From positions 1-20,376 of IMG/VR virus record IMGVR_UViG_3300025087_000338: a stretch of 20,376 nt of DNA. One strand, written 5' to 3'. How positions within the stretch are numbered: the stretch's first letter is position 1; the number at the start of each line of letters is the position of its first letter. Source of the DNA: a virus. A model generated the notes under the pieces. It worked only from the letters and a program-made list of their open reading frames with translations. It made no database searches and had not been told where the DNA came from. Positions 56 through 20,376 of this stretch are shown one piece after another. A program made the position numbers and the translations under genes.

Positions 56-256
56 TTACTCTCCTTTCTCTTTAAGGTTAGATAAGAATTTCTTATTATC
101 ATCTTCAAGATTAGATACCAACATTAAAAGCATATTTGCAAGATTCTCACCGTTCTTTGCTAGTTGAGGAGGATATGCAATTATTGCCATCTTAATTCCT
201 CGGAGTATTTCTTCTCTCCCCTTTATCCTAGACTCTTCTATTTCTTTCTGGTTCAT
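56..256 (-). CDS. small hypothetical phage protein (66 aa)
   Basis: This is a 66-residue mostly helical, charged protein, beginning MNQKEIEESRIKGREEILRG and ending in a lysine/glutamate-rich segment (NLKEKGE). A hydrophobic stretch around residues 23-31 (MAIIAYPPQ) is too short for a membrane helix. No family is recognised. It is the second-last gene of the leftward operon within the window, 27 bases after the zinc-binding protein gene, and it almost abuts the next gene. The start is supported by a purine-rich stretch (AAGGTTAGAG) just upstream. Confidence 0.65.
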   Translation of the reverse strand: MNQKEIEESRIKGREEILRGIKMAIIAYPPQLAKNGENLANMLLMLVSNLEDDNKKFLSNLKEKGE

Positions 257-283
257 TACTCTAACCTTTAATAATTTAACTAA

Positions 284-496
284 CTATTCCATCCACCCTA
301 CACACTCATTTTCGCAAAAGGCGTGGATATGTCCATTAACACTATTTGCCATTCCATAACGAATCTTTCCTCCACAATAAGGACACTCTAATTCTCCAGA
401 TACATCTTTACCCTTCTTAATCTCTTCTCTATGTTTATCTAAAATCATTTTACGAACCACCCCTATCTTTTCTATTGTTTTATCTATTTCTTTCAT
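284..496 (-). CDS. small putative zinc-binding protein (70 aa)
   Basis: The N-terminal half is helical and basic (residues 1-32). The C-terminal half carries C38-P-Y-C41-G-G, a histidine at 58 and C61-E-N-E-C65, which together look like a single zinc-ribbon or knuckle. The start is well supported: AAGGAGG lies about 6 bases before the ATG, one of the clearest SD sites in the leftward genes. Its role is unknown; small zinc ribbons like this in phage early regions are often DNA- or host-protein-binding accessory factors, but that is inference from the family type only. Confidence 0.7.
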   Translation of the reverse strand: MKEIDKTIEKIGVVRKMILDKHREEIKKGKDVSGELECPYCGGKIRYGMANSVNGHIHAFCENECVGWME

Positions 497-518
497 CTCT
501 ATTCCTCCTTAAATTAAA

Positions 519-1235
519 TTAAACCTTTCTAATCTTTAATTTTTTAACATCTACTCCTAACGCTTTCGCAACCTCGTCCATAGAGTATTCATTACTCTTA
601 ATGCTCAATTCCTTCTCAACGTCTATTCCACTTATCTCCAGGAATAGTTCATTGTTCCAATTAGGCAATGTTAATGTCTTTCTTCTATCCTCATCACTCG
701 CATTTTTCCAACTCTTCCTGAATGCCTCTTGGTATTCATAGCTTCTTAAATAACCACCAGTTGTCTTGTATGTATCGTGTGCTACTTTCTCTTCATCTGT
801 CATAGCCTCTTCTGGTATCCATTCTGTAATATCAAAGTAGAAATAATTAGGGAACTCTAAATCATCTCGTGCAATATCACAATCCATATTAAATATTCTT
901 ACTTTTGGTCTTACAGTGTTTAAGAATCCAGTATTCCCATCCCCAGTATTCCAATCCCCAGTATTCCCATACCCAGTATTCCCATTCCCAGTATTCCCAT
1001 CCCCAGTATTCCCATTCCCAGTATTCCTATCCCCAGTATTCCCATACCCAGTATTCCAATCCCCAGTATTCCCATCCCCAGTATTCCAATACCCAGTATT
1101 CCTATCCCCAGTATTCCCATCCCCAGTATTCCTATTCCCAGTATTCCCATTCCCAGTATTCCCATCTTCTGATACTGTTTTGATAGTGTCTTTCTTTACA
1201 TACTCAACGCCATCTATCACTATTTCGTTCTTCAT
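519..1235 (-). CDS. NTG-pentapeptide-repeat protein with conserved C-terminal domain
   Basis: This is a 238-residue protein in three parts. Residues 1-23 form a short beta-like N-terminus. Residues 24 to about 105 are about 16 tandem pentapeptides of the form N-T-G-(D/N/Y)-(G/W/R), matching the asparagine/glycine-rich class of pentapeptide repeats (the kind also seen in mycobacterial PPE-MPTR proteins), which are expected to form a right-handed beta-helix. Residues 106-238 are a non-repeat domain rich in aromatics (FPNYFYFDITEW) with a TYKTTGGYL segment and a final helix. From memory, similar repeat-plus-tail proteins occur in phages and prophages, but their function is not established. The gene follows structured leader element A with an AT-rich, SD-less start. 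The repeat is unusually uniform at the DNA level (see the repeat entry). Some pentapeptide-repeat proteins mimic DNA; whether this one does is unknown. Confidence 0.85.
   Translation of the reverse strand: MKNEIVIDGVEYVKKDTIKTVSEDGNTGNGNTGNRNTGDGNTGDRNTGYWNTGDGNTGDWNTGYGNTGDRNTGNGNTGDGNTGNGNTGYGNTGDWNTGDGNTGFLNTVRPKVRIFNMDCDIARDDLEFPNYFYFDITEWIPEEAMTDEEKVAHDTYKTTGGYLRSYEYQEAFRKSWKNASDEDRRKTLTLPNWNNELFLEISGIDVEKELSIKSNEYSMDEVAKALGVDVKKLKIRKV
928..1167. repeat. 16 x 15-bp tandem repeat, no indels
   Basis: Sixteen consecutive units of the plus-strand form CCAGTATTCCNATNC keep perfect 15-bp spacing. Thirteen of the fifteen positions are constant in the first fifteen units. Only the two N positions change, to A, C or T and never G. 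In the gene (minus strand) these are the first bases of two adjacent codons, giving GAT/AAT/TAT (D/N/Y) and GGG/AGG/TGG (G/R/W). The last unit runs into unique sequence. All reading frames through the repeat are open, so ORFs in the other frames here are side effects. Confidence 0.95.
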
Positions 1236-1249
1236 ATTAAATAAAATTA

Positions 1250-1362
1250 TAAATTAAATAGCTAATCCTTAATAACTAACGGTGGAGTGCCCCGACATCA
1301 TGAATGTCTACCGCTTACGGTGTGCACCCGCCTTCACTCCCCCGATAATCATTAAAAGAACT
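1250..1362 (-). ncRNA. structured leader element A (upstream of the NTG-repeat gene)
   Basis: On the minus strand this element has a fixed outer frame and a 66-nt core (1281-1346). The frame is a 31-bp block (1250-1280) and a 16-bp block (1347-1362), both repeated exactly at element B. The two blocks can pair through UUUUAAU with AUUAAGG (two G-U pairs). The core closes with GGAGTG (1284-1289) against CACTCC (1335-1340) and contains the hairpins GACAT/ATGTC (1294-1298 with 1304-1308) and ACCG/CGGT (1310-1313 with 1318-1321), so it looks like a three-way junction. It ends about 15 bases before the ATG of the repeat-protein gene. I cannot assign it to a known RNA class. Confidence 0.6.
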
Positions 1363-1652
1363 TTTAGTACACTATATGAGATACTCTGGGTAGGACTCCA
1401 TCATAGTCAACGTACGATTGCGAATCTTCTTGTTGCTACAAATGTAATTTTCATCTACCTACTTGCTCGGTGTTAGGCGAATATTACAATACGCTTTTTC
1501 CTCCTTCTACAACCTGCCCGTGTAAATACAGTGCATTAAATCTGCCACCAAAGTACCTCATAAAATGTACTATTTAACTTTTTAAGAGCAACTAAAAGAC
1601 TATTCCTTGTTCGCAGGTGGCTCGTGACCATCAACAAACAGGGGGCAGGCTT
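1363..1652. other. intergenic stretch without a convincing gene
   Basis: These 290 bases lie between the gene ending at 1653 and element A. The minus strand holds only very short frames, including a 25-codon frame (MRYFGGRFNALYLHGQVVEG...) and a 15-codon frame (MKITFVATRRFAIVR). Neither has a good SD at its own start, although an AAGGAGGA sits near 1500. No strong hairpin or tRNA is visible. It is probably the transcribed 5' region of element A. Confidence 0.5.
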
Positions 1653-2132
1653 CTATGTACCACTCATATTTGACCTTACTCTACTATCAATCAAGGTCTT
1701 AATCTTGCTCTGAGAGTAATTAATTGTTCTATCCGCGTTCTCATATAAACCTCTTAATTTTCTTGCTTGATAATTAGCCTTAATCTCCATTTGTTTAATC
1801 TCATCACACTCTTTCTCTGCCATAGCCTTCGCCATTCCATCAGTAATCTTGTCTCCATTCTTTAACTCTATATACTTATCTCTAACGCTCGATTTATATT
1901 CTTCGCTTAATGCCTCTGCTTTAGTATAAGCATAGTCTTTTAAGTCCCCTAGATTAAACAAGAGGCTTGAGAGTATCATCATAGAATCTGTTACCTTATC
2001 CATCTGCCAACTCTCCACAGGAGTATCTTCAAAGTATTTTTTAATGTGCAAAATCTTCTCTACAATAGGCATTCCCTCAATACCTTTTTGTATATTATCT
2101 ATATCACTCATAATTTCCATACTGTTTATCAT
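1653..2132 (-). CDS. hypothetical helical protein in the recombination block (159 aa)
   Basis: The product is acidic and almost wholly helical, with heptad-like stretches (for example KAMAEKECDEIKQMEIKANY, residues 103-122) and no cysteine motif or membrane segment. No family is recognised. It sits directly downstream of the NinG-like gene and has its own promoter (2140-2168), whose predicted start is at about 2133, so an mRNA from it would be leaderless at the ATG at 2132. Initiation at in-frame ATGs at codon 5 or 8 (2120 or 2111) is also possible. Position suggests a recombination or replication accessory role; this is inference only. Confidence 0.7.
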   Translation of the reverse strand: MINSMEIMSDIDNIQKGIEGMPIVEKILHIKKYFEDTPVESWQMDKVTDSMMILSSLLFNLGDLKDYAYTKAEALSEEYKSSVRDKYIELKNGDKITDGMAKAMAEKECDEIKQMEIKANYQARKLRGLYENADRTINYSQSKIKTLIDSRVRSNMSGT

Positions 2133-2139
2133 ACTTAGT

Positions 2140-2168
2140 ATATTATCAGTTTATATTCTTTTTGTCAA
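2140..2168 (-). promoter_or_regulatory. sigma70-type promoter, leftward
   Basis: On the minus strand a perfect TTGACA (2163-2168) is followed by a 17-base spacer and TAATAT (2140-2145), preceded by TG one base away (extended -10). The -35 overlaps the 3' end of the NinG-like gene. The predicted transcription start coincides with the ATG of the next gene. Confidence 0.6.
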
Positions 2169-2634
2169 TATCCAAATAGACTTGTAGTAATGAATTGTCC
2201 TTCTTGAGTGCATTAAATCTTGTTCTGAATTCGTCTGACAGTTCCTCTAGTTCTGGCACGGAGAGCTTATCAAGCAGATTAGAAATCTTCTCTTTTTCTT
2301 CAAAGTCTTCCAGGCCATATCTCTTTATATACCAGATATGGTATGCGGGGTAATTTCCATCTCTTCCCCCATATATAGAGCTTTTGTTGCAGTCTTCACA
2401 TTGTCCATTTACCAGGCGAGTGTCAAAGAGTATTGATTCGTTTCTTCCGCCAATGCAATGTCCTGCTTGGGTATGTTTGAACTCATACCTCACACCACAG
2501 CTAACACAATAACACTGGTCTGGTTCTCCTGTCGTGAATAGACAATCTCTCAAACGAATATATTTGCTAAACCAGTCCCAAGTTCTTTTCTTAACTGTAG
2601 TCTTCTTTGGGGCTTTGATTTTTGGTATTTTCAT
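2146..2634 (-). CDS. ninG: NinG/Rap-like recombination endonuclease
   Basis: This 162-residue protein has the layout of lambda NinG (Rap), a structure-specific endonuclease that cuts recombination intermediates. It has a basic N-terminus (residues 1-20), a C43-V-S-C46 pair, a QAGHCIGGRN segment (57-65) containing the conserved histidine, then C79-E-D-C82-N, and a YPAYHIWYIKRYG helix region near 95-107. The C-terminal third is helical. It overlaps the 3' end of the exonuclease gene by 44 bases, an unusually long overlap, so translation is probably coupled; no good later start is present before the basic segment. The neighbours (exonuclease, SSB-like) support a role in phage recombination. The family call is from recognisable motifs and the exact activity is inferred. 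Confidence 0.8.
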   Translation of the reverse strand: MKIPKIKAPKKTTVKKRTWDWFSKYIRLRDCLFTTGEPDQCYCVSCGVRYEFKHTQAGHCIGGRNESILFDTRLVNGQCEDCNKSSIYGGRDGNYPAYHIWYIKRYGLEDFEEKEKISNLLDKLSVPELEELSDEFRTRFNALKKDNSLLQVYLDIDKKNIN

Positions 2635-3238
2635 TGCTGATAGTTCGTAATATTAAATCCTGATTTTCTTTAACCCAATCCATTATCTTCTTATCAAACT
2701 CGACTTCTTCTATTACATAGTCGCCATCGTTCTTAAAAATAATAACGGCGAGTTTCCCTTTCCAATCTGTTGCATTTGCATATAGAGTTAGTTGCCACTT
2801 CGTATGCTTAATCTTTTGGTTGTTTCTTTTGTAGGGCTTTTCGTCGTAAGCACCAAAAGTCTTCCAATCTGCCAACATCTCCTCGCCAGTTGCCTTATTT
2901 CTAACTAATCCATCATATCTACCTGCATAATTCAATTCTTCGCAGATTACTTCTTGTTCCGTGTTTACTAATTCCCAATCTTCTAAAAACTTATTCATTC
3001 CCATGGAGAGGTTGTCCTCTAACTTGTCCATCTGCGGGGCTGATAGCCACTCCAATCTGCGATATACGTTGTCGAGGTACTCTGACACCTTGCTACCTAA
3101 AATACGGCTTGTATTGGTTATGACTTGCGGGTCTTTGCCTACTCTTTGACACCAATTCTCAAAAGCCACCCTGTTGAATGGGTCTTTAAGTTCAATGAGA
3201 GAAGTAACTGATAGATATTTGTCGTAATATATCCTCAT
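2591..3238 (-). CDS. RecB/Cas4-type PD-(D/E)XK exonuclease
   Basis: The 215-residue protein carries the nuclease core in order: E100-E101 before the core strand, G106-R-Y-D109-G, then A123-D124-W-K126-T (the D-X-K catalytic pair) and Q149-L-T-L-Y153, the QxxxY motif typical of the RecB nuclease family. Such phage enzymes resect double-stranded ends to give single strands for annealing recombination. It lies between the SSB-like gene and the NinG-like gene. Its ATG overlaps the TGA of a 17-codon frame as ATGA. No SD is visible, so coupling to that short frame may matter for translation. Confidence 0.85.
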   Translation of the reverse strand: MRIYYDKYLSVTSLIELKDPFNRVAFENWCQRVGKDPQVITNTSRILGSKVSEYLDNVYRRLEWLSAPQMDKLEDNLSMGMNKFLEDWELVNTEQEVICEELNYAGRYDGLVRNKATGEEMLADWKTFGAYDEKPYKRNNQKIKHTKWQLTLYANATDWKGKLAVIIFKNDGDYVIEEVEFDKKIMDWVKENQDLILRTISNENTKNQSPKEDYS

Positions 3239-3288
3239 TCTAAAGGAATTAGAACTAAAATTATTACTATTGCTATTAATGTTCCCAT
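3235..3288 (-). CDS. 17-aa hydrophobic micro-protein candidate
   Basis: An 18-codon frame (MGTLIAIVIILVLIPLE, stop TGA) starts one base after the stop of the SSB-like gene and ends in an ATGA overlap with the exonuclease start. Residues 3-15 are entirely hydrophobic and could span or dip into the membrane. The exact fit between both neighbours is the main evidence; the alternative is that it only serves to carry ribosomes to the exonuclease ATG. It is the only visible gene outside the 7907-9617 block ending in TGA. Confidence 0.45.
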   Translation of the reverse strand: MGTLIAIVIILVLIPLE

Positions 3289-3289
3289 G

Positions 3290-3802
3290 TTAAAATGGGA
3301 GTTCGTCTTCTAGTTCTTCCTCTTGTGTCAAAGTCTTAGCTGGTTCTAATGCCTTTTTACTAAAATCTAGGGCGTCCTTGACCTCTACGGTCTTCGCAAC
3401 GCCATTCCATAGTTCCTTTCGTGGTGTAACTATTCCAAGCTTTTCTTCCACGACCTTTAACCTGTTGTCAAACTCCTTAAAGTCTAGTTCTAACGCTTTT
3501 CTGCCACCCTCTTTAGGGGGAAGTTCAAGGTTAAAGTATTTCCTTCCATTGCTTTCTTTCACAACAATTTTTCCCGTCATAGACATACCGTCAACCCAGC
3601 CATTTGTATTGTCAAAATAATCAAAGTAGGTTACTCTGCCCCGAAAATCTGGGTCATTAATAGTTCGTGGGTTAAAATCTAAATTTACTTTCACATAAGG
3701 AAGTTTCTTTTCTTTCGATAATAACGGGTTACCATTAATATCTTTATAATCCTTATATATTTTGTCTATCGTAACATTGTTTAACTCGTATTCTGTATTC
3801 AT
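3290..3802 (-). CDS. ssb: single-stranded DNA-binding protein-like
   Basis: The 170-residue protein has a beta-rich N-terminal two thirds (residues 1 to about 115: alternating strands such as YVKVNLDF, GRVTYFDYF and KYFNLELP, consistent with an OB fold) and a linker ending in an acidic tip, EEELEDELPF. The DELPF end resembles the DDDIPF tip by which bacterial and phage SSBs recruit partners. It probably coats single-stranded DNA made by the neighbouring exonuclease. The OB-fold assignment rests on strand pattern, tail and context, not on a full family signature; a recombination mediator with an SSB-like tail is the main alternative. Confidence 0.65.
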   Translation of the reverse strand: MNTEYELNNVTIDKIYKDYKDINGNPLLSKEKKLPYVKVNLDFNPRTINDPDFRGRVTYFDYFDNTNGWVDGMSMTGKIVVKESNGRKYFNLELPPKEGGRKALELDFKEFDNRLKVVEEKLGIVTPRKELWNGVAKTVEVKDALDFSKKALEPAKTLTQEEELEDELPF

Positions 3803-3803
3803 A

Positions 3804-4070
3804 CTATTTATTGTTTAACTTAGTTAACTCATCATACTCCTTCTCGAGCGTTCCTATTCTTTTATTGTCCCTCTCTATATCCTCGTCTCTCCAGTCTGTC
3901 TCTTTAACGGCCCACTTGGCATATACGAGTTTTTCTCCTTTATTCCACCCTCGTAATTTTGATTTAAGCTTCTCAGACAAAATGAAATTGGTTGTGTCAT
4001 CTATAGACGGTCGCCCTAAATGTTTCACCACAAAACCTTGATACCTTTCTAAAAGGTCTTCCTTACTCAT
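3804..4070 (-). CDS. hypothetical protein (88 aa)
   Basis: This is a basic, helical small protein with a predicted coiled-coil C-terminus (residues 60-88, EDIERDNKRIGTLEKEYDEL). It contains a GWNKGEKLVYAKWAVKETDW segment that may be the folded core. Its ATG overlaps the end of the 55-aa gene upstream, and its stop lies one base before the SSB-like start, so it belongs to the recombination operon. No family is recognised. Confidence 0.65.
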   Translation of the reverse strand: MSKEDLLERYQGFVVKHLGRPSIDDTTNFILSEKLKSKLRGWNKGEKLVYAKWAVKETDWRDEDIERDNKRIGTLEKEYDELTKLNNK

Positions 4071-4230
4071 TCAATTTTTCTTTTAATAATTTAATGTCTA
4101 TCTTTTCTAATATTTCTTTTGATTCGCTCTCTTTACATGGAATGAAATTGGTTCCTATGCTACAACTGTTACCGAGAGAAGGGTAAATAATTAATCCATT
4201 ATCTGTTTTTATAGATATTATTTTTCTCAT
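4063..4230 (-). CDS. 55-aa hypothetical protein
   Basis: The reading frame starts MRKIISIKTDNGLIIYPSLG and ends in a lysine-rich helix (LLKEKLNE). AAAGGAAA lies upstream at a workable distance. The start is one base from the stop of the preceding gene (4232) and its stop overlaps the next start by 8 bases (AATGAGTAAGG), an arrangement typical of real phage genes. The N-terminal half looks beta-rich. Function unknown. Confidence 0.6.
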   Translation of the reverse strand: MRKIISIKTDNGLIIYPSLGNSCSIGTNFIPCKESESKEILEKIDIKLLKEKLNE

Positions 4231-4231
4231 A

Positions 4232-4609
4232 TTATTTACTTTCCTTTAATAACTTATTTTCTTTTCTTAAATCAATAATCATTTCCTTGGCCTTTGCCAT
4301 TTTTGAGGCGTATTCTGCCTCAATTTCAATTCTTAACTTATCAATATCAGGGTTTCTAGTGTTCTTTAACGCCTCAATCCCCAATTTTATTTCTTCCCCT
4401 CCCTCCATTAACATCTCCTTTATATCGGCCACGAGTTCTTTGATTACCTTTCGTGTCTCTAACCTTACTTCGTCCTTGTCAAGACTATCTCCCCCTATTG
4501 TATAGCTTAGGAATTCTGAAGCCTTCTCCTTTGAGAAAGTATCTTTTGAAAGGGGAATATCATACCCCAATGTGACCTTTATCTCCTCATATCTATTTTG
4601 TATTTCCAT
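4232..4609 (-). CDS. hypothetical coiled-coil protein (125 aa)
   Basis: The first 45 residues (GYDIPLSKDTFSKEKASEFL) look globular. The rest is a long charged helix, with heptads clearest from residue 90 on (KLRIEIEAEYASKMAKAKEM). It is probably an oligomer. A GGAGGA SD lies 6 bases before the ATG. The gene is first in the tight run 4609-2146 leading through the SSB-like, exonuclease and NinG-like genes. It could be a recombination or annealing partner, but no annealase motif is seen. Confidence 0.65.
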   Translation of the reverse strand: MEIQNRYEEIKVTLGYDIPLSKDTFSKEKASEFLSYTIGGDSLDKDEVRLETRKVIKELVADIKEMLMEGGEEIKLGIEALKNTRNPDIDKLRIEIEAEYASKMAKAKEMIIDLRKENKLLKESK

Positions 4610-4629
4610 TTTGTCCTCCGTGTCAAATA

Positions 4630-4890
4630 TTAATATATATCCATTTCATCAGCACATCTATTGCAGATATGCCCTGTTCCATAATCAATGGAAACAGCAT
4701 CATTCTCATCGACTATGATTCCACATCTATAACATTGCACGGTTTTGATATCGTCCTCATCATCAAAAAGGATAGGTGGCGTGTCTATGTCCTCACACTC
4801 TATGTCCGACCATATACCGTCCTCCCACTTTCCGACGCCACTTCTAACTCCATTTTCATCAAATCCCTCTGGAATATTGTTGTTGTTCAT
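4630..4890 (-). CDS. acidic zinc-ribbon protein (86 aa)
   Basis: Residues 1-50 are very acidic (DIECEDIDTPPILFDDEDD). Residues 53-79 hold two CxxC pairs, C53-Y-R-C56-G and C76-N-R-C79, spaced like a classical zinc ribbon. A highly acidic N-terminal tail joined to a small zinc ribbon suits a protein-binding adaptor more than a DNA-binder; this is inference. It lies directly behind structured leader element B, which shares its frame with the element before the NTG-repeat gene. There is no SD; the leader is AT-rich. Confidence 0.7.
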   Translation of the reverse strand: MNNNNIPEGFDENGVRSGVGKWEDGIWSDIECEDIDTPPILFDDEDDIKTVQCYRCGIIVDENDAVSIDYGTGHICNRCADEMDIY

Positions 4891-4905
4891 TTGCAGTTTT
4901 TATAT

Positions 4906-5112
4906 TAAATTAAATAGCTAATCCTTAATAACTAACACCAACCTAGCACAATACTGTTCCTGTATTATGCCAAGTGAACTAGGTAATTACTCCTAGTTGA
5001 GAAGTTGGGCACCGCCTGTATCTCCGCTTCGGTCTTCTCATGGACTCTCAATTCCACATTGCTCGTAAGCTAACGAGGTGCGTACAGATTGGTGTCAATC
5101 ATTAAAAGAACT
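4906..5112 (-). ncRNA. structured leader element B (upstream of the zinc-ribbon gene)
   Basis: This element has the same outer frame as element A: identical 31-bp (4906-4936) and 16-bp (5097-5112) blocks that can pair with each other (4923-4929 with 5101-5107). The 160-nt core is unrelated in sequence to core A. It is closed by a 10-bp helix (4934-4943 with 5087-5096, two G-U pairs) and holds four further helices: CTCGT/ACGAG (5062-5066, 5073-5077), a 7-bp perfect stem (4998-5004, 5034-5040), a 7-bp perfect stem (4977-4983, 4992-4998; it shares base 4998 with the previous one), and a 9-bp stem with one G-U (4946-4954, 4962-4970). The result is a compact multi-helix junction ending 16 bases before an ATG. 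It matches no RNA class I can name. Confidence 0.65.
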
Positions 5113-5114
5113 CC

Positions 5115-5264
5115 CTACTCCACAAAATTGGTTTCATAACCAGTTTCAGTCATAAATCTATCACACTCCATCTTAGCCATATATTTGACGATAGAGTTTA
5201 CACCTAAAATTATAATTGCAATGGAGGCACATACAGCAACAATAAAATTCCAAAAATCGTTCAT
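5115..5264 (-). CDS. 49-aa single-span membrane protein
   Basis: The frame begins MNDFWNFIVAVCASIAIIIL; residues 4-26 form a clear transmembrane helix, followed by a charged, probably cytoplasmic tail (KYMAKMECDRFMTETGYETN). It ends three bases before element B. The leader carries an 18-base sequence (5269-5286) identical to the one before the zinc-finger gene at 11762, which supports the start. Tiny membrane proteins of this type are common in phage early regions, but the role is unknown. Confidence 0.65.
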   Translation of the reverse strand: MNDFWNFIVAVCASIAIIILGVNSIVKYMAKMECDRFMTETGYETNFVE

Positions 5265-5737
5265 TCTTCTACTTAATAAAATTATTTACAGTTGCTACTG
5301 CTCCAATGGAATTATGATTCTCACTAGCAGTACGGCATTGCATAACTCAAGCCCACAACCTGTCCTCAACCGTGGGCAAACATATTTCATAGTGGTACGG
5401 GCTAGAATCCGTCTTGGTTTACCATAGCCACTACACAAGCGTGTAATGGGTACTCTATCCTGTTTTCTACTCTAAACTAACCACTACTAATCAAATACAT
5501 TGGTCGGGGTGCTACCCTATATAGTCAGTATAGTTTAACTTTTAGTGCGTATTACAGATGGTGTTGACCAGTATCTCCCATATCAGCAACAAACACTTTC
5601 ACCCCAGTCAATATATTTGATTTTATTGTGTGAACAGGGCTTCTATACGGCATAACTGACGAGCAGTATCGTTTTTCCGATATTTCTACCCTGTTCATTT
5701 CCTAAGTTAAAGAGCTACATTACCTTCCCTATCTTAC
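5265..5737 (-). ncRNA. candidate long structured RNA or leader transcript
   Basis: About 470 bases downstream of a consensus leftward promoter lack a convincing gene but are rich in stems on the minus strand. There is a perfect 9-bp stem (5631-5639 with 5689-5697) enclosing a 5-bp hairpin (5667-5671, 5678-5682). There is also a 9-bp stem with tetraloop and one G-U (5428-5436, 5441-5449), a 6-bp GCCCAC/GTGGGC stem (5351-5356, 5372-5377), and a perfect 7-bp stem (5296-5302, 5326-5332) around a 4-bp hairpin. No tRNA is seen. Competing explanation: two short frames exist here, 49 codons from the ATG inside the 9-bp stem and 31 codons ending near 5299. It may be a stand-alone RNA or the leader of the downstream genes. 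Confidence 0.5.
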
Positions 5738-5743
5738 AATTGC

Positions 5744-5772
5744 ATTATAGCATTTCATTGACATTGTTACAA
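5744..5772 (-). promoter_or_regulatory. sigma70-type promoter with extended -10, leftward
   Basis: On the minus strand TTGTAA (5767-5772), a 17-base spacer and a perfect TATAAT (5744-5749) preceded by TGC. The expected start is near 5737, which leads into non-coding structured sequence rather than directly into a gene. Confidence 0.7.
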
Positions 5773-5790
5773 TAAAGCAATAATAAATTA

Positions 5791-6051
5791 CTATATACTA
5801 AAATCATCTTCTATCTTGTCGCTTGGGTATATATGTATTTTTATCCCGTCAAATTCCCATTCAAAGTCCTCTCCTTCTGATAGCTCCTCTACCTCGCTAT
5901 CATCGAAAGCAACCTGCATTTTATAATCATCTAAAAACACTAGAGTTTTTGAAAGGGCTTTCATGTATCCACGCCAGTACATGAGGTCGTATTCTGTTGC
6001 CTTGGGTTGTAACTCTGCGAACTTCATTTCCTTTTCAATTAGTTTTTTCAT
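5791..6051 (-). CDS. hypothetical acidic protein (86 aa)
   Basis: The first half is helical (KEMKFAELQPKATEYDLMYW, then KALSKTLVFLDDY) and the second half is acidic and strand-like (EELSEGEDFEWEFDGIKIHI). No cysteine motif or membrane segment is present and no family is recognised. It is the last gene of the run 7021-5791, before the promoter at 5744. The start has an AT-rich leader and no SD. Confidence 0.65.
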   Translation of the reverse strand: MKKLIEKEMKFAELQPKATEYDLMYWRGYMKALSKTLVFLDDYKMQVAFDDSEVEELSEGEDFEWEFDGIKIHIYPSDKIEDDFSI

Positions 6052-6068
6052 AGTCTTATTTGATTAGT

Positions 6069-6296
6069 TTAATATTTGTATGCAGGAAATGGCTTATCCT
6101 GTTCGTCGAGTCTAAAATCCCACACATCTAACATCTCCTCTAACGACATTTTTAAGATTGCCTCTCTATCTTGGCCTTCGATATCGTATTCGATATAGCT
6201 CAACATGTCGGTTCTAACAGCGTCGCGACTTGTGTAGTTGTATCCCGTGTCCGTGTATTCTCCCACTTGTTTATCAAAGACTGCGTAGTATTTCAT
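6069..6296 (-). CDS. hypothetical protein (75 aa)
   Basis: I chose the ATG at 6296 (MKYYAVFDKQVGEYTDTGYN) because it gives a typical small-protein beginning and follows an AT-rich leader like those of other genes here. An in-frame ATG at 6326 would add ten residues (MLNLIYKYNT) and overlap the preceding stop by 8 bases, and cannot be excluded. The protein has strand-like segments at its N-terminus and an acidic middle (EYDIEGQDREAILKMSLEEM). No family is recognised. Confidence 0.65.
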   Translation of the reverse strand: MKYYAVFDKQVGEYTDTGYNYTSRDAVRTDMLSYIEYDIEGQDREAILKMSLEEMLDVWDFRLDEQDKPFPAYKY

Positions 6297-6318
6297 AGTA
6301 TTATATTTATATATTAGA

Positions 6319-6513
6319 TTAAGCATTTATAAACTCAATGGCACTTTGTATTGTCTTGAAAGCTAGGTTGTACCCTTCGAATTTTTCGTCCCCATTCATT
6401 ACAGTTTTCGCGTATATGTCGTAGTGGTCGTTCGTATATCTCGAATGTCTTACTTGGTAAACCGTGTAGCATATAGGCGAATTCTGTTTTTTCAATTCAT
6501 AAAATACTCTCAT
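6319..6513 (-). CDS. hypothetical protein (64 aa)
   Basis: This is a small tyrosine-rich protein (MRVFYELKKQNSPICYTVYQ) with a probable beta-strand N-terminus and a final helix (FKTIQSAIEFINA). The strand-then-helix layout resembles many anonymous phage early proteins but no family can be named. It lies 18 bases downstream of the collagen-like membrane protein gene with an SD-less AT-rich leader. Confidence 0.6.
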   Translation of the reverse strand: MRVFYELKKQNSPICYTVYQVRHSRYTNDHYDIYAKTVMNGDEKFEGYNLAFKTIQSAIEFINA

Positions 6514-6531
6514 AATTAGTATTGATTTAAA

Positions 6532-6777
6532 TTATATTAAGCTAAGCAATAGACCCGCCAATGCAAATAATCCGTAGAAAAATATGCACAAGCCGAGTAC
6601 TGCCACAATAAACCCGACTACACCCATTCTGCAACTCTCCCTATCTGCTTTCATGTTGTTTCCTATTGTGTTTATGCCTGTAGCACCACTCATTCCAGTA
6701 GCTCCATTCATTCCGTTGTCGCCTATCGTTGTGGCTTCATATAGTCTATGTAAAAGACTTCCTCTGTTTATCTTCAT
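6532..6777 (-). CDS. small membrane protein with a collagen-like stretch (81 aa)
   Basis: Residues 19-34 read G-D-N-G-M-N-G-A-T-G-M-S-G-A-T-G, five G-x-y triplets with the GAT pattern also seen in the tail fibre at the right of the window. Residues about 52-81 are a strongly hydrophobic C-terminus (FIVAVLGLCIFFYGLFALAG) able to form one long or two short membrane helices. The layout suggests a soluble or surface-facing stem anchored by its tail. The triplet run is too short for a stable collagen helix on its own. Function unknown. Confidence 0.65.
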   Translation of the reverse strand: MKINRGSLLHRLYEATTIGDNGMNGATGMSGATGINTIGNNMKADRESCRMGVVGFIVAVLGLCIFFYGLFALAGLLLSLI

Positions 6778-6781
6778 AGTC

Positions 6782-6880
6782 TTAATGTAACAATTTAATT
6801 ACCAATCTATTTCCCATGTCATACACTGCCATATATTTCTTTTTGGGTAAATATGTCCTAGGGTCTATTTTCAATCTCAT
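6782..6880 (-). CDS. 32-aa basic protein candidate
   Basis: The frame reads MRLKIDPRTYLPKKKYMAVY and continues to a hydrophobic end (LVIKLLH). It starts three bases after the stop of the 45-aa gene and stops a few bases before the next gene, filling the interval exactly. No SD is present, as for most neighbours. Too short for a family call. Confidence 0.45.
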   Translation of the reverse strand: MRLKIDPRTYLPKKKYMAVYDMGNRLVIKLLH

Positions 6881-6883
6881 ATA

Positions 6884-7021
6884 TTATTTCAATATAAGCT
6901 TAGATAAGTCCCCACCCGATATCATTGCTTCATCATTTGTTAAATCTACCATGATTAGAACTCCGCCAATTAGCTCTGCTAATTTCCCTGGATTCATACC
7001 ATTAAGTTTAATTGTATTCAT
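6884..7021 (-). CDS. 45-aa hypothetical protein
   Basis: The product begins MNTIKLNGMNPGKLAELIGG and has a hydrophobic centre (ELIGGVLIMVDL) and a short C-terminal helix. It is the first complete gene downstream of the predicted transcription start of the promoter at 7129-7157, about 100 bases away. The intervening leader includes a TAGGG/CCCTA hairpin around 7065-7085. Function unknown. Confidence 0.5.
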   Translation of the reverse strand: MNTIKLNGMNPGKLAELIGGVLIMVDLTNDEAMISGGDLSKLILK

Positions 7022-7023
7022 AG

Positions 7024-7251
7024 CTATAAATATAAAAACTTAAGTACATATTGAGGTAGTATCGGGTAGGGCGTTATCCCTAAAAAGGTGCCGTTTATCC
7101 TGCTACCCTTTACTATCTTACTATAAATAGTATATAGCTTTGTTAGATAATTGTCAAGTGATATGTATGTACTACTAATATGTTCTAGTGTTATGTTATA
7201 GGTATATTTCCCGCCGATTTGCCTTGCTATATGAGGTGCAATCATACCCAT
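7024..7251 (-). CDS. doubtful hypothetical protein (75 aa)
   Basis: The frame is open from an ATG at 7251 (MGMIAPHIARQIGGKYTYNI) and ends two bases before the 45-aa gene, which favours a gene. Against it, a near-perfect leftward promoter (7129-7157) lies inside it, its tyrosine/leucine/isoleucine-rich composition is what AT-rich non-coding sequence gives, and its upstream neighbour is non-coding. It may be the leader of the downstream operon. Confidence 0.35.
   Translation of the reverse strand: MGMIAPHIARQIGGKYTYNITLEHISSTYISLDNYLTKLYTIYSKIVKGSRINGTFLGITPYPILPQYVLKFLYL
7129..7157 (-). promoter_or_regulatory. strong sigma70-type leftward promoter
   Basis: On the minus strand a perfect TTGACA (7152-7157), a 17-base spacer and TATACT (7129-7134, five of six consensus bases). 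The start is expected near 7122. It probably drives the leftward early genes from 7021 on. Confidence 0.7.
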
Positions 7252-7850
7252 ATAGTTATATCGTACGTTAGAGGGGTTGTTAGGGCTTCGCCTAATGTTG
7301 ATATATCGGGCTTTGTTGAATAGGTTGTGCTGCTACTCGCCGATTAGTACCCTGCTACATATTAGCCTACTCTTACATATGAGGACATATAGCGTATACA
7401 ACCAACAGGCTTTCAGGGTGTAAATCCTGCTCGTTTACTATTCCCGCCGAGTTTACCCCGCTCCCTGTTTATCTACTAACAATCATTATAGAGAGTTGTA
7501 GTGTGTTCGTTACCATAGGTTGTACAGGTTACCAGTTGTATATCATCTTACGAATCCGCCGAATAGTTCCTTAAACCGCCACAATTAGCCAATAAACGGC
7601 TCTAGAGATACTAGAATAAGCCCGAATATATACCCTGCTTACTGATACGAGTTAGCATAAAGTATAGTACCCGCCTACCAGGTGGCCCGCCCCGCCTGTA
7701 GGTGACCAATAGGGGGTAGGGGTGGAACTCATAGGAGGTAGGGGGCCTGAAAATGACGGTGTAGTAAAAGAAAGAAGGGGGTACCCCTCACTCCCAAATA
7801 TATGGAAAGGTAGAAACGCACAAAGGTAGCCCCAGATAGCTGCAGTAAGT
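7252..7850. other. divergent intergenic region, G-rich tracts and hairpins
   Basis: About 600 bases between the leftward and rightward units hold no convincing gene. Visible features are: a TTAGG/CCTAA hairpin at 7279-7294; CGCCGA at 7338-7343, 7445-7450 and 7557-7562 (plus 7212-7217 just outside); an 11-bp hairpin at 7674-7702; a G-rich plus strand at about 7711-7785 with runs of four to five G; and a GGGGTACCCC palindrome at 7778-7787. A 14-base sequence at 7475-7488 equals the joined flanks of leader elements A and B. Such regions often hold control sites or an origin; neither can be shown here. Confidence 0.5.
7674..7702. other. stable GC-rich stem-loop
   Basis: CCTACCAGGTGG pairs with CCGCCTGTAGG across a six-base loop: eleven base pairs with one bulged C and one G-U (on the plus strand). 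There is no T-run on either side, so it is not a standard intrinsic terminator. It may be an RNA structure or a protein-binding site between the divergent units. Confidence 0.5.
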
Positions 7851-7879
7851 TTGATTTAGTCGTGCTTAGTTGGTATAAT
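7851..7879 (+). promoter_or_regulatory. strong sigma70-type rightward early promoter
   Basis: TTGATT (7851-7856), a 17-base spacer and a perfect TATAAT (7874-7879) with TG one base upstream (extended -10). The start is expected near 7886. An AGGAG (7898-7902) and GAGGAG follow just before the ATG at 7907. Confidence 0.85.
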
Positions 7880-7906
7880 AGGGCAATAAAATAAGTAGGA
7901 GAGGAG

Positions 7907-8194
7907 ATGAAGAACACTATTCGGGTTAAAAGGCTTGTTAGCGAGACAAAAATAACCTGTGACTTGTGTGGAAAGCATGGTGGTTCGTTGCAACTGCTTT
8001 ATGATAGTTATGGATATGGTTCAGATGTTTATTCGGTTGAGCTGTGCGATGAATGTATCAAAAAGGTTCTTTTTGGTGCATTATACGACGCCGATATACA
8101 GATATATAAAGAGGAAATTATCGAGGGTGATGGTTTTGGCAGAGAGCCTATGATGAGAGATGATATAGTTAAGTTAATTCGAGAGACAAAATGA
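7907..8194 (+). CDS. zinc-knuckle protein, first rightward early gene (95 aa)
   Basis: The protein contains C18-D-L-C21-G and C47-D-E-C50, spaced like a small treble-clef or zinc ribbon, between strand-forming segments (KRLVSETKITC, DVYSVELC). The C-terminus is acidic then helical (MMRDDIVKLIRETK). It has the best SD in the window and lies directly behind the rightward promoter, so it is expected to be made early and strongly. Its TGA overlaps the start of the next gene. No family is recognised; a small host-directed or regulatory protein is plausible. Confidence 0.75.
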   Translation: MKNTIRVKRLVSETKITCDLCGKHGGSLQLLYDSYGYGSDVYSVELCDECIKKVLFGALYDADIQIYKEEIIEGDGFGREPMMRDDIVKLIRETK

Positions 8195-8760
8195 AGAAAG
8201 TAATGTTGACTGTACCAGAAGATATTTATGAGTTACTGGTGAGGGCTAGTGGGGAGAGTATGAGGCCTATTGCGACGGAGGCGTTGTATAGAATAAAGGA
8301 GGGGTTAGAGGTTCCTGTGGAGTTAGGTGGTGAGAAGAGGATAACAATAACAATCCTGGATAGTGTCTATGAGATGCTTGAGAAGGACAGGGGTACGAAT
8401 TCTCGAAGTGCTTGGATACAGTATCTGATTTTGGTAGGTGGTAAGGAAGAGATAGTGGGACCTAAGAGGGGGTTGGCGGAGATACAGGACAACCGTTCAA
8501 AGAGGGCACAGTTGTATAAGGAAGTAGGTACCATCCCAGATGAAAATAATGAAAAAACGAAGGGTACACAACCTATTGAGGACTATTCAGAGATAATTGA
8601 AGAGATAAACAAGGTCAATGGGGAGGGGTATAATGTGGAACCTAGTGATACTCAGAGGATAAAGGAGATGTGTAAGGAGAAGGGTGTCCAGTATAACAAC
8701 TATAAGAAGACACTAGATAAAAAGGTTAATGGGGAGTGGGTGGTTGTGGCGAGAATATGA
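8191..8760 (+). CDS. putative tandem ribbon-helix-helix regulator (189 aa)
   Basis: Two stretches each look like a ribbon-helix-helix unit. The first is residues 1-38 (strand KKVMLTVP, helix EDIYELLVRAS, helix RPIATEALYRIKEGL). The second is residues 48-85 (strand KRITITIL, helix DSVYEMLEKD, helix SRSAWIQYLILVG). One polypeptide would then supply both halves of the usual RHH dimer. Residues 90-189 are charged and linker-like, ending in a small helix-strand segment (VQYNNYKKTLDKKVNGEWVV). The gene overlaps both neighbours by four bases (ATGA). Position next to the divergent promoters suggests a transcriptional regulator; the operator is not identified. Assignment rests on pattern only. Confidence 0.6.
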   Translation: MKKVMLTVPEDIYELLVRASGESMRPIATEALYRIKEGLEVPVELGGEKRITITILDSVYEMLEKDRGTNSRSAWIQYLILVGGKEEIVGPKRGLAEIQDNRSKRAQLYKEVGTIPDENNEKTKGTQPIEDYSEIIEEINKVNGEGYNVEPSDTQRIKEMCKEKGVQYNNYKKTLDKKVNGEWVVVARI

Positions 8761-8948
8761 GAACACCCCATACCTCAACATACCAGGGCAAAATGGTGGG
8801 GGTTAAGCTAAGAAGTGGGGAGGTGATTAAGGGGAAGTTCTACGGTAAAAAACGGGATTATATTTTACTGGGTTTGAGTGTTGAGGATAGGGTTAAGATT
8901 TTGAAAAAGGACATGGCTACATTTATGATTATAAAAGGAGAACAATGA
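8757..8948 (+). CDS. Sm/Hfq-like small protein (63 aa)
   Basis: From the ATGA-overlap start at 8757, residues 11-60 follow the Sm fold pattern: G-K-M-V-G-V-K-L (strand 1), R-S-G-E-V-I-K-G-K-F (strand 2, the L-x-x-G-x-x-x-x-G signature), K-R-D-Y-I-L-L (strand 3), RVKILKKDMATFMII (strands 4-5). Hfq and bacterial or archaeal Sm proteins form rings that bind U/A-rich RNA. The protein lacks a clear N-terminal helix and the Hfq YKHAI motif, where it has LKKDMATFMI. An upstream in-frame ATG (8736) lies inside the previous gene and is less likely. The alternative is another small beta-barrel (for example Tudor- or SH3-like). Confidence 0.5.
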   Translation: MRTPHTSTYQGKMVGVKLRSGEVIKGKFYGKKRDYILLGLSVEDRVKILKKDMATFMIIKGEQ

Positions 8949-9073
8949 TAATTATACTTTTGGTGATTTGTGGAGTGAGTGCTTTGCTGGGCGTTCCATT
9001 CTGGACAGCCCTGCTTATCATATTCATAGCGATATTTATTTTAGGGACCATTGAGGGTATACGAAGCCAATGA
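8945..9073 (+). CDS. 42-aa double-span membrane protein
   Basis: The frame begins MIIILLVICGVSALLGVPFW and continues with a second hydrophobic run (TALLIIFIAIFILG), then a short polar tail (TIEGIRSQ). Two membrane helices separated by a proline are likely. A strong AAAGGAGAA SD lies upstream, and both ends overlap neighbours by ATGA. Short hydrophobic proteins in early operons can act on the membrane or on superinfection; nothing here decides. Confidence 0.65.
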   Translation: MIIILLVICGVSALLGVPFWTALLIIFIAIFILGTIEGIRSQ

Positions 9074-9279
9074 GAAGATACACCATAACAATTGACGCAC
9101 AGTTTGGAAATGAATCTCAAGAGGAAAAGGGTATTGGAATGCTTAAAATCATGCTAAATGCTTGGGCTATTCACACCCACAACGCCCATAAGGGAAATAT
9201 GGTTAAATACTCCATGAAAGATAAGGGGCTCAAAAAGGAGCTCAGGGTAAAGGACGAGAAGGGGTACCATACACTGTAA
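9070..9279 (+). CDS. hypothetical basic protein (69 aa)
   Basis: Residues 1-10 form a strand (MRRYTITIDA), residues 18-38 a helix (EEKGIGMLKIMLNAWAIHTH), and the remainder is lysine-rich and strand-like (ELRVKDEKGYHTL). This alpha/beta pattern is common in small phage proteins but no family is recognised. It is the last gene of the ATGA-linked early run, and the only one ending in TAA. Confidence 0.65.
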   Translation: MRRYTITIDAQFGNESQEEKGIGMLKIMLNAWAIHTHNAHKGNMVKYSMKDKGLKKELRVKDEKGYHTL

Positions 9280-9296
9280 TTAAAAAGTGATATAAT
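9268..9296 (+). promoter_or_regulatory. possible rightward promoter before the packaging genes
   Basis: A perfect TATAAT (9291-9296) has an extended -10 TG (TGATATAAT) and a weak -35, CATACA (9268-9273), 17 bases upstream. The expected start is near 9303, which is past the GTG start of the next frame, so translation from this transcript would need the ATG at 9351. Confidence 0.5.
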
Positions 9297-9617
9297 GTGC
9301 CATGGGATGTAAGAGAAAAGGTAAGAAAAAATAATTTAGCTACTGCCAAGATGCTAACCCAGTGGAGATACAAAATTCAAAAATCGTTTGCCAGACAAGG
9401 TGAAGATATCTTCGACGGAGAAGAGTTGCAGAGAATCATTCACACAAAACCACGCCCAAAAAGATTGTTTCTTTACAAACCCTCAAAGAAAAAGGTAGAC
9501 TATGTAGATTATACAGGAGAAACTCCGCTTGGAGAAATGGAGATAGGTTTTTTCACCTGTAAGTTAGAGTTGTTAGGGTATATTAAATTCGTTGGTAGAA
9601 GAATTTGCAATGAATGA
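9297..9617 (+). CDS. hypothetical basic protein (106 aa)
   Basis: The protein is basic, with a helical N-terminal half (VREKVRKNNLATAKMLTQW) and a lysine-rich linker (TKPRPKRLFLYKPSKKK) leading to strands (GEMEIGFFTCKLEL). The start is uncertain: a GTG at 9297 or the ATG at 9351; a TGA stop at about 9287 prevents any earlier start. Its TGA overlaps the TerS-like ATG. It sits just before the terminase genes, where a DNA-binding packaging or HNH-like protein could occur, but no nuclease motif is present. Confidence 0.6.
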   Translation: MPWDVREKVRKNNLATAKMLTQWRYKIQKSFARQGEDIFDGEELQRIIHTKPRPKRLFLYKPSKKKVDYVDYTGETPLGEMEIGFFTCKLELLGYIKFVGRRICNE

Positions 9618-10080
9618 ACAATTAACTAAAAAGATTGACGCCTACAAGACAAGTGCAGGACTTTCAAAGTGGGACGACAAAAGTATTTCACGCGAATGTA
9701 AAAGATTACAGGACAAACTTAGCATTGTCCGTATTGAGCCCAAGGAATATAAAATGCTCCGTAAGATTGCCGAAGGACTGAAGGTTGAAGAGAAGGTGGA
9801 TTTGAGTGCCGCTGCAAGATGGGCAGGATACCCTGAGTGGAAGGTCAAACATCCAGAGACTATGATTCTAAGAAACATTCCTAACTCTCTGTTTAATGAG
9901 TTGGTTGGGATTAACAGAAATGAAATTGAAATGGAGCTGGTTAAAGTTATGAAACAAGACGAGAATCTAGCAGCCAAGAACAAGGCTATTGAAATGGGAC
10001 TTCGAGTTACAGGAATGATGGAACCAGAGAAGGGAAATCAAGTCAATATAATAAATGGTGGAATAGGAGTAGCAGATTAA
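9610..10080 (+). CDS. terS: terminase small subunit (putative)
   Basis: The 156-residue product from ATG 9610 has helical N-terminal regions, then a helix-turn-helix-like segment (residues 74-90, LSAAARWAGYPEWKVKH) and the C-terminal pattern seen in small terminases (AAKNKAIEMGLRVTGMMEPE followed by QVNIINGG). TerS recognises phage DNA and delivers it to TerL. A GTG at 9592 would add six residues but the ATG overlaps the previous stop tightly. The TAA stop shares its last base with the next gene's ATG. Position two genes before TerL supports the call. Confidence 0.65.
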   Translation: MNEQLTKKIDAYKTSAGLSKWDDKSISRECKRLQDKLSIVRIEPKEYKMLRKIAEGLKVEEKVDLSAAARWAGYPEWKVKHPETMILRNIPNSLFNELVGINRNEIEMELVKVMKQDENLAAKNKAIEMGLRVTGMMEPEKGNQVNIINGGIGVAD

Positions 10081-10328
10081 TGGGAAAGAAAAGAACCTAT
10101 ACAATAACGGAAGCCGTTAGAAACCCAAGTCATTTTACTAAGGATGTTCCATTTGACATTACAAATAACGGACAGATAGTGGCAACAGTTATAAGTCCAA
10201 AGGGTGCCAACTGGTATGTGTGCGAGAATTGTGGTGAGAATACCCAGAATATTATTGATTACCAGGACGATAAACTAGAGTGGCATAAGTTAATATTATG
10301 TGATAAGTGTGGTGAAGAATTACTATAA
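10080..10328 (+). CDS. Phd/YefM-like N-terminus with zinc ribbon (82 aa)
   Basis: Residues 7-41 read like the core of Phd/YefM-type antitoxins (T-I-T-E-A-V-R-N, then DITNNGQIVATVISP), the region that in that family forms the DNA-binding dimer. Residues 48-77 hold C48-E-N-C51-G and C74-D-K-C77-G, a zinc ribbon in place of the toxin-binding tail. No toxin gene is seen beside it. It lies between the terminase subunits, overlapping the first by one base. A role in controlling or assisting packaging is possible; the antitoxin resemblance may reflect only the DNA-binding fold. Confidence 0.5.
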   Translation: MGKKRTYTITEAVRNPSHFTKDVPFDITNNGQIVATVISPKGANWYVCENCGENTQNIIDYQDDKLEWHKLILCDKCGEELL

Positions 10329-10340
10329 GTAAAAATATAA

Positions 10341-11744
10341 ATGGAAAATCATACAATAAGTACAGATGACCTAAAGATTTCTTTTGATGGCAAGGTTGTT
10401 TACGACCCACTGCCACAACAGAGGAAGTTTCACTTGTCTCCTAAAAAATACAGATTACTAGGAGGAGCTGTAGGTGGAGGTAAAACTGCAGCACTGAAAG
10501 CTGAGGCTATAATGAGAAGCTGTAAATATGATTTTCCTTTGACTGGTGCAATATTTAGAAGAAGTTTCCCAGAGCTGGAATCAACTGTCATTAGGGGAAT
10601 GTTGGATATGTTACCAAGCTGGTTTTATAAGTATAATCAAAGCTCCCACACAATGACACTTAAGAATGGAAGTATCATAGAGTTTTGTTATGCAGAGAGT
10701 GACGCAGACGTTATTCGATATCAGTCCCGAGAGTGGGATTGGCTAGGCCTTGATGAAATGACCCACTTCTCAGAATATCAATTTTCATATCTAGGTTCTC
10801 GTGTAAGAACCACTAAGCCGATAAACACAAAAATATTCGGTGGTACCAATCCAGGGGGAAGAGGACATAATTGGGTTAAAGAAAGATTTATTACTAAGTC
10901 CTGTAGTAATCCAGCATATAATTCTCAAGAATATGATTTTATACCTGCTGGTATTAGAGACAATCCTTACTTGATGACTAACAACCCAGATTACATTAGT
11001 CAGCTTGAGATGTTGCCCGAACTAGAAAGAAAGGCGCTATTAGAAGGGGATTGGAACTTGTTTGCAGGAATGTTTTTCACAGAGTGGGACCCTACTCGAC
11101 ATATTGTAGACGACTTTGAAGTACCAGAAGAATGGAGACTTATTTTAGGTTGGGATGATGGAACTAGGGAGTGGAGGTCAGTACACTTATACGCAGTTGA
11201 TAACGACCAGAGGGTTTGGTGTGTTTGGGAATACTACCAAAAAGAAGAAGACCTCGGTGTCGCTGCAGAGAATATAAAAAGACAGCTTCAAGATTTAGGA
11301 TACTGGGATAGGATTTATAAGTTGGTGGTAGACCCCTCAATGAAGCGAACTGACAGCCAAACTGGATTATCAAGTACTTCCGTATTAGAGGGTTTGGGAT
11401 ATGGGTTTAAGATTGGTGAAGTTGAGTTGGGAAATAATGATAGGGTAGAGGGCTGGAGAATAATGAAGAGTTACTTGTCACACAAACCCTACGAGGAGCC
11501 AATGATGAAATACTTCAGGAGTTGTGATAATATAATTAGAACTATACCGCAATTGATATACTATCAATCAAGGTCTGGTAATGTGAGTAAGAAGGAAGAC
11601 TTAGATAGTTCGCAAGAGGACCATTGTGTCGACGAAAATCGCTATACACTGGTCTCTTTAGATAGACTTCCATCGAGATTTGAAAGCAGTAATTCCTTTA
11701 AGGTTAAGAAGAGGGATTATCGCCCAAGGTCTGGTTATAAATAA
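10341..11744 (+). CDS. terL: terminase large subunit
   Basis: This 467-residue packaging motor has a Walker A at residues 41-49 (GGAVGGGKT), Walker B with the catalytic acid at 135-139 (LGLDE), and a coupling motif at 166-171 (FGGTNPG region). The C-terminal nuclease has candidate metal-binding aspartates at D272/D273, D331 (VVDPS) and the aspartate in HCVDENRY near residue 434. It cuts concatemers and pumps DNA into the prohead through the portal. The start follows an AT-rich leader (AAAAATATAA) without SD; the same ten bases precede the portal gene. Length is normal for TerL. Confidence 0.95.
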   Translation: MENHTISTDDLKISFDGKVVYDPLPQQRKFHLSPKKYRLLGGAVGGGKTAALKAEAIMRSCKYDFPLTGAIFRRSFPELESTVIRGMLDMLPSWFYKYNQSSHTMTLKNGSIIEFCYAESDADVIRYQSREWDWLGLDEMTHFSEYQFSYLGSRVRTTKPINTKIFGGTNPGGRGHNWVKERFITKSCSNPAYNSQEYDFIPAGIRDNPYLMTNNPDYISQLEMLPELERKALLEGDWNLFAGMFFTEWDPTRHIVDDFEVPEEWRLILGWDDGTREWRSVHLYAVDNDQRVWCVWEYYQKEEDLGVAAENIKRQLQDLGYWDRIYKLVVDPSMKRTDSQTGLSSTSVLEGLGYGFKIGEVELGNNDRVEGWRIMKSYLSHKPYEEPMMKYFRSCDNIIRTIPQLIYYQSRSGNVSKKEDLDSSQEDHCVDENRYTLVSLDRLPSRFESSNSFKVKKRDYRPRSGYK

Positions 11745-11757: not shown

Positions 11758-11761
11758 TAGC

Positions 11762-12364: not shown

Positions 12365-12365
12365 T

Positions 12366-12647: not shown

Positions 12648-12664
12648 TCTAAAAATATAAAAGA

Positions 12665-14941: not shown

Positions 14942-14963
14942 ATAAATTAAGTAGTAGTAAACT

Positions 14964-19491: not shown

Positions 19492-20376
<885 letters not shown>

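Follow-up and report, generated by a model that had tools for sequence, protein, structure and literature searches.

tRNA-like folds outside tRNA genes are already known, both in leaders, as in the yjdF riboswitch (PMC9142559), and in non-coding RNAs such as YrlA (PMC7790460). In the mRNA leaders of bacteria such folds are few. Here we describe a tRNA-like module, which we call TLS1, in a 20,376-base stretch of DNA (hereafter the window) that is a fragment of a tailed phage. A preliminary description of positions 5265–5737 had proposed either a ROOL- or GOLLD-like large phage RNA or a very long leader. Comparison with related phages indicates that the region is very probably a conserved structured leader that carries TLS1.

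The start of the 38,509-base IMG/VR contig 3300001242_000055 is identical to window positions 606–20376. The minus strand carries early genes (about 56–7021); those for terminase, portal and capsid lie on the plus strand, from position 7907 onwards. A peptidase M23 gene was identified by Pfam farther along the contig, which fits a bacterial host. Two conserved phage proteins have no relative in the genomes scanned (one genome per species, 84,980 species), and among 50,697 phage records neither a relative of the portal protein nor a match to the DNA of 5265–5737 was found. In Rhizobium phage RHph_TM16, blastn matched 33 nt (E 2) within a gap, on the other strand from the neighbouring genes; this match was dropped. 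Relatives were gathered with the portal protein (55–74% identity), with a few more via a small terminase-associated protein, and an exonuclease search added L070 and L071 at 53–54% identity; overall, the relatives share 53–73% protein identity with the window phage. Four of them reach far enough to include the homologous region. These are L059, which is the nearest relative of the window and represents one phage with L046; L050 (the same as L062); L070; and L071.

Several features of these genomes were observed in passing. The terminase large-subunit genes of L047 (2002–4278), L052 (3110–5413) and L061 (1626–4010), and also those of L045, L053, L055 and L066, contain in-frame inserts at more than one site, with a Pfam Intein_splicing match above the cut-off in L047 (4.9e-10) and below it in L052 (3.8e-5); the copy in the window has no insert. 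In L046, a gene for the RNA ligase RtcB (2830–4017; PF01139, 1.5e-117) adjoins a tRNA-Pro gene (4114–4187). The window itself has a 15-base tandem repeat array that encodes a pentapeptide-repeat protein (519–1235, minus strand; PF01469), and a collagen-like tail gene that is open at the window end (19494–20376, plus strand). About 770 non-coding bases at 7115–7885 are flanked by divergent promoter-like sites and carry AGCAGGGTANNNNTCGG repeats on the minus strand, with an exact copy at 7340–7356 and one with 2 mismatches at 7623–7639. This repeat is also present in L059 (5 matches with at most 2 mismatches, 0.19 expected) and in L062 (1 match), and a looser copy lies inside the 5' hairpin (Table 1). 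The gap at 7115–7885 is perhaps an origin or operator array.

A probable long leader on the early strand

The TATAAT promoter with an extended -10 that had been described upstream of the region is present (Table 1), and its aligned counterpart in L059 reads TTGTAA-N17-TATTAT, spacer included. Promoter-grade sites are no rarer in the window than expected by chance (42 at up to 3 mismatches, 42.0 expected). At the homologous places in L070 and L071, TTGACA-type promoter-like sequences were read shortly 5' of the RNA.

Four ORFs lie in or overlap 5265–5737, of 47 and 48 aa on the minus strand and of 80 and 36 aa on the plus strand. A tblastn search with these four against 16 related loci gave nothing better than E = 0.15, and the frames across the homologous RNAs of L059, L070 and L071 are interrupted by stops. 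Small proteins encoded in the region were therefore rejected, in agreement with the initial view of about 470 bases that hold no convincing gene. The predicted minimum free energy (MFE) of the minus strand is -133.1 kcal/mol, compared to -114.6 +/- 6.5 kcal/mol for 100 shuffled sequences (z -2.85; 2 of 100 as good), which bears out the structured stems seen at first. Because the plus strand has a similar value (z -2.60), fold energy alone cannot tell the strand. Between 4600 and 5900 no terminator-like site was found on the minus strand, the sole one being on the plus strand. The tiny ORF and the structured leader B that had been noted downstream are as described.

Searching the whole window against Rfam at the gathering score identified no family. 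At E <= 10 with permissive filters, the interval 4880–5800 gave six weak matches, none of them to ROOL, GOLLD, OLE or tRNA, and the best of the six (SdsR_RyeB, E 0.085) scored 24 bits where the gathering score is 38; the interval 370–1460 of L050 gave zero matches at E <= 10. ROOL, GOLLD and OLE, which had been named for this comparison, and every other Rfam family were ruled out by the absence of credible model matches. Of the two possibilities proposed initially, the ROOL/GOLLD kind thus falls away and the very long leader stands. The simplest reading is a leader whose transcript would run on through the 49-aa ORF and leader B into the gene for the 86-aa zinc-ribbon-like protein, as the promoter is conserved, no ORF is conserved, the minus strand has no terminator-like site, and in the relatives the homologous RNA is found just upstream of the zinc-ribbon-like gene.

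Table 1. Positions of the leader elements and neighbouring features in the window.
Feature	Position	Strand	Basis and remarks
Promoter TTGTAA-N17-TATAAT, TG before -10	5772–5744	-	10/12 matches; predicted start near 5737
boxA-like AGCTCTTTAAC	5706–5716	-	10/11 to consensus GYTCTTTAANA; could pair with the stretch before the next ATG (MFE)
5' hairpin, 10-bp closing stem UGAACAGGGU/GCCCUGUUCA region	5631–5697	-	z -3.55
Module closed by 14-bp helix	5489–5622	-	MFE and centroid
TLS1, tRNA-like cloverleaf with hairpin insert in anticodon-like arm	5389–5487	-	Alignment, pair counts, RNAalifold, cmsearch
Hairpin GCCCAC...GUGGGC	5351–5377	-	MFE
Hairpin UACUGCU...AGCAGUA	5296–5332	-	MFE
49-aa ORF, hydrophobic N-terminal half	5115–5264	-	ORF list; no convincing relative found
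Leader B, structured, untranslated, boxA-like AGTTCTTTTA at 5103–5112	4891–5114	-	z -4.17
Small zinc-ribbon-like protein gene, 86 aa	4630–4890	-	Alignment across five TLS1 lineages
EL2, second tRNA-derived element with retained acceptor helix and enlarged body	1372–1564	-	Homologues in relatives
Leader A, boxA-like AGTTCTTTTA at 1353–1362, closing helix as leader B	1240–1362	-	Repeat, motif, fold
boxA-like AGCTCTTTAA and hairpins, gap after capsid gene	17864–17960	+	Fold z -1.61, not significant

The tRNA-like cloverleaf TLS1

TLS1 was aligned with its homologues in L059 (5615–5712, minus strand), L050 (1328–1398, minus), L070 (2178–2247, plus) and L071 (8442–8509, plus), and is thus present in five phage lineages, counting the window. 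It comprises an outer stem of 7–8 bp, a 4-bp D-arm with an 8-nt loop, a variable middle arm and a 5-bp third arm that abuts the outer stem. The cloverleaf can be formed in all five sequences, with the D-arm GUUY/RAAC, its loop AGANNRGA and a 7-nt loop on the third arm, and the end of the third arm (column 93) directly adjoins the outer stem (column 94) in every row, as in tRNA. Within the five-row alignment 93.1% of 101 cells are paired. Both sides have changed in 13 of the 21 pairs, compared to a mean of 4.7 in shuffled alignments (0/500 reach 13) and to 0–3 double-changed pairs when the partners were slid by 1–3 columns. The structure scored in these counts was written down after reading the sequences; RNAalifold, run without a supplied structure, arrived at these four helices by itself, with a total of 21 pairs and double changes in 13.

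Pair types at single positions of the outer stem include A-U, G-C and U-A, and the D-arm stretch UAGUUYAGA..GA.AAC is nearly invariant. The middle arm forms 2 of its 4 pairs in the window and in L059, and has an insert of about 30 nt, which is a hairpin in the window copy. Single-sequence MFE predictions give the cloverleaf for L050 and L059, and another interior for the window, L070 and L071. Comparison of the five lineages shows that TLS1 keeps its predicted tRNA-like cloverleaf by compensatory changes, and it is in this module that the covariation in related phages, suggested initially as a check on the RNA, is seen.

A covariance model (R1) built from the five sequences refinds them by construction at 72–85 bits, and found nothing else convincing in 26 loci (331,150 bases). 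Over 16 whole records R1 identified TLS1 in 6, two of which are the same phage; most of the other 10 end before that part of the genome. R1 also matched L007 weakly (E 0.13), as it did L012 (E 0.33, inside an ORF); both matches were rejected. The same zinc-ribbon-like gene is found beside TLS1 in all five lineages. The spacing ranges from about 50 nt up to about 500 nt with an intervening ORF; L050 is an exception, as TLS1 is located after this gene and not before it. L079 contains the zinc-ribbon-like gene without a TLS1 match to R1. In the window, L059, L070 and L071, TLS1 follows a promoter-like sequence at a distance of between a few dozen and about 250 nt.

TLS1 shares with tRNA (RF00005) the order of the arms and the 7–8 bp outer stem that abuts a third arm of 5 bp whose loop has 7 nt, and by pair counts and RNAalifold it has the cloverleaf secondary structure of tRNA. 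The positions that we take to be equivalent to U8, A9, G10-C25, A14, G15, G19 and A21 of tRNA are identical in all five sequences, and the equivalent of G18 in four. In contrast to tRNA, the T-loop is non-canonical (column consensus RNKCYRR, not UUCRANY), there is no usable anticodon loop (8–10 nt or a hairpin insert, not 7 nt), and CCA is not encoded. ARAGORN at default settings did not call TLS1, the Rfam tRNA model at E <= 10 did not report it in the window, L050 or L070, and a strict scan for canonical T-arms found none at TLS1. Only at a setting relaxed to 85%, where ARAGORN made 70 calls in 15 sequences, did these include the L062 copy, given as tRNA-???. An intron-containing tRNA gene, as read by ARAGORN, was rejected; relaxed settings produce a flood of false calls, and at 70% the window by itself yielded 101. 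With a T-loop unlike that of tRNA, no CCA or normal anticodon loop and no default ARAGORN call, TLS1 is tRNA-like and not a tRNA. The predicted fold is well supported by the alignment; its function we infer.

EL2, boxA-like sequences and other leader elements

The second tRNA-derived element, EL2, has homologues in L059, L069, L070 and L050. Its outer 15-bp helix shows little variation (98.7% of cells paired) and covariation is weak: both sides have changed in 2 of its 15 pairs, a number reached in 37 of 500 shuffles. The syntenic EL2 of L069 is plainly tRNA-derived, as it combines a D-arm with the acceptor ACUUUGG/CCAGAGU and the canonical T-arm GUAGGUUCAAAUCCUAC. With the Rfam tRNA model it scores 17.3 bits, below the gathering score of 29. 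The canonical T-arm of EL2 is kept in L069 only and is lost in the window, L070, L059 and L050. A further canonical T-arm is found in L062, where the acceptor that matches it lies at a distance of about 160 nt. Strict canonical T-arms are present at four distinct places in 16 pieces, namely EL2 of L069, L062, a tRNA-Pro (L059) and a tRNA-Trp (L049).

Other parts of the leader are less widely shared. The inner block CGGAAAAACNATACTGC of the 5' hairpin and GTCAG..TTATGCC are common to the window and L059, and in the stem these two differ by one double change and G-U changes, as read from the sequences. The module closed by the 14-bp helix occurs in this phage only, with no counterpart in L059. 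The 3' arm of the closing helix of leader B is repeated exactly in leader A (31-nt repeat, 4906–4936 = 1250–1280). The zinc-ribbon-like protein itself has a weak match to DUF7685, below the cut-off. A leader in L070 (5445–5585) has a long closing helix (z -5.28), in which a boxA-like 5' arm pairs just before the next gene, like leaders A and B.

The published boxA consensus is GYTCTTTAANA (PMC5725501). The related motif AGYTCTTTWA occurs without mismatch four times in the window, each time in an untranslated gap on the transcribed strand; such gaps make up 2,009 of the 20,376 window bases. Exact GYTCTTTAANA is absent from the window and from L071, and is found once each in L042, L059, L069 and L070 and three times in L062, always in gaps. 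These seven occurrences in seven sequences compare to about 1.1 from the summed shuffle means. Eight other contigs together contain it three times, at coding-looking places (by ORF overlap, or for L061 by likeness to coding copies). Matches of the AGCTCTTTA type that follow the portal gene were not retained as boxA, since by eye they encode the conserved end of a small ORF. A gap of about 470 bases in L042 (18461–18933), 5' of the next gene on the same phage contig, holds hairpin-like sequence and an exact match to the boxA consensus at 18554. Folding predictions for several leaders pair the boxA-like stretch with sequence close to the start codon that follows, so that the stretch may be an arm of a helix instead.

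Possible roles and relation to described systems

We estimate a probability of roughly 50% that the region is a long untranslated 5' leader of the early minus-strand operon in which TLS1 acts in cis by mimicking tRNA. The stacked acceptor and T arms are the part of a tRNA that RNase P and other tRNA-end enzymes recognise; the anticodon arm is dispensable to them. The acceptor-like outer stem and the third arm of TLS1 would stack in the fashion of tRNA, and may be read by host RNase P, perhaps by RNase Z, or by another reader of the tRNA shape; recognition by one of these is favoured because the two arms are predicted to stack and only the anticodon arm varies. A base-paired 5' end protects mRNA from decay, and cutting 5' of TLS1 would leave the downstream mRNA with such a decay-resistant end. 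The boxA-like sites could keep RNA polymerase going through the untranslated RNA. That processing or stability is the main job of the leader module we propose tentatively, at less than even odds. More speculative is the suggestion that this uncultured phage group punctuates its early transcripts with decoding-less, tRNA-derived cloverleaves and boxA sites, a form of 'tRNA punctuation' by which processing or elongation would be controlled in mRNA leaders.

Antitermination would give the boxA-like sequences the leading part: such a site together with the structured RNA would load NusB/S10 or act directly on RNA polymerase, and transcription of the early operon would thereby continue across the untranslated gaps. 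The four mismatch-free AGYTCTTTWA sites in transcribed-strand gaps of the window, and the excess of exact consensus matches in gaps across the window and six relatives, are consistent with this. The window itself nevertheless lacks an exact GYTCTTTAANA, the motif had been noticed before it was counted, the boxA-like stretch can be an arm of the closing helix in several leaders, and L071 has TLS1 without a boxA-like site at that place; we consider antitermination somewhat unlikely. The constant pairing of TLS1 with one gene in five lineages and the near-invariance of its D-arm stretch could instead point to a ligand- or protein-sensing translational operator, riboswitch-like or a tRNA mimic, that acts on the zinc-ribbon-like gene; yjdF is a published example of a riboswitch folded like tRNA (PMC9142559). 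The variable distance to the gene, the ORF that lies between and the reversed order in L050 speak against an operator, which seems unlikely to us.

A tRNA mimic without a usable anticodon might also serve as a decoy or inhibitor that occupies host tRNA-binding proteins or defence nucleases. RtcB in L046 suggests RNA damage during infection, and a similar idea has been raised for YrlA (PMC7790460), but TLS1 lies within an mRNA leader and is not a free gene, and RtcB is absent from the window. We regard a decoy as quite improbable, yet worth testing because of the RtcB ligase in one relative. Least probable, and in our view very unlikely, is that these elements are decaying tRNA genes or a chance fold without present function. 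The retention of a canonical T-arm in EL2 of L069 only and the weak covariation of the EL2 helix would agree with decay, but decay would not make the pairs of TLS1 keep co-changing in five lineages.

If TLS1 does act as a cis mimic, decoding-less tRNA-derived modules in phage leaders would offer a testable case of viral reuse of the tRNA shape to steer the processing, stability or elongation of transcripts. TLS1 is open to simple experiments, with a working covariance model (R1) and clear mutants that break and restore the outer stem. The TLS1 family is absent from Rfam 15, and no tRNA-like leader module of this kind in phages was found in the open-licence PMC literature, which is weak evidence that it is undescribed.

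With ROOL and GOLLD, the RNA of 5265–5737 has in common that it is a large structured phage RNA of unknown role with a connection to tRNA (PMC12286853); it differs in having no match to their models and in a cross-lineage conservation that is limited to about 100 nt. The boxA antitermination sites of rrn leaders and lambdoid nut sites are resembled in that an RGYTCTTTAA-type sequence lies near the start of an untranslated structured RNA; the boxA-like sites here are candidates identified by sequence. YrlA and other bacterial Y RNAs are non-coding RNAs that likewise have a tRNA-like domain, and RtcB is part of such systems too (PMC7790460), whereas TLS1 lies within an mRNA leader and has no Rfam match; no Ro60-type (Rsr) protein was found among the subset of genes scanned with Pfam. 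The yjdF riboswitch differs from the window RNA in that the latter has no Rfam match, and is like it in being a leader RNA of tRNA-like shape located upstream of a gene (PMC9142559).
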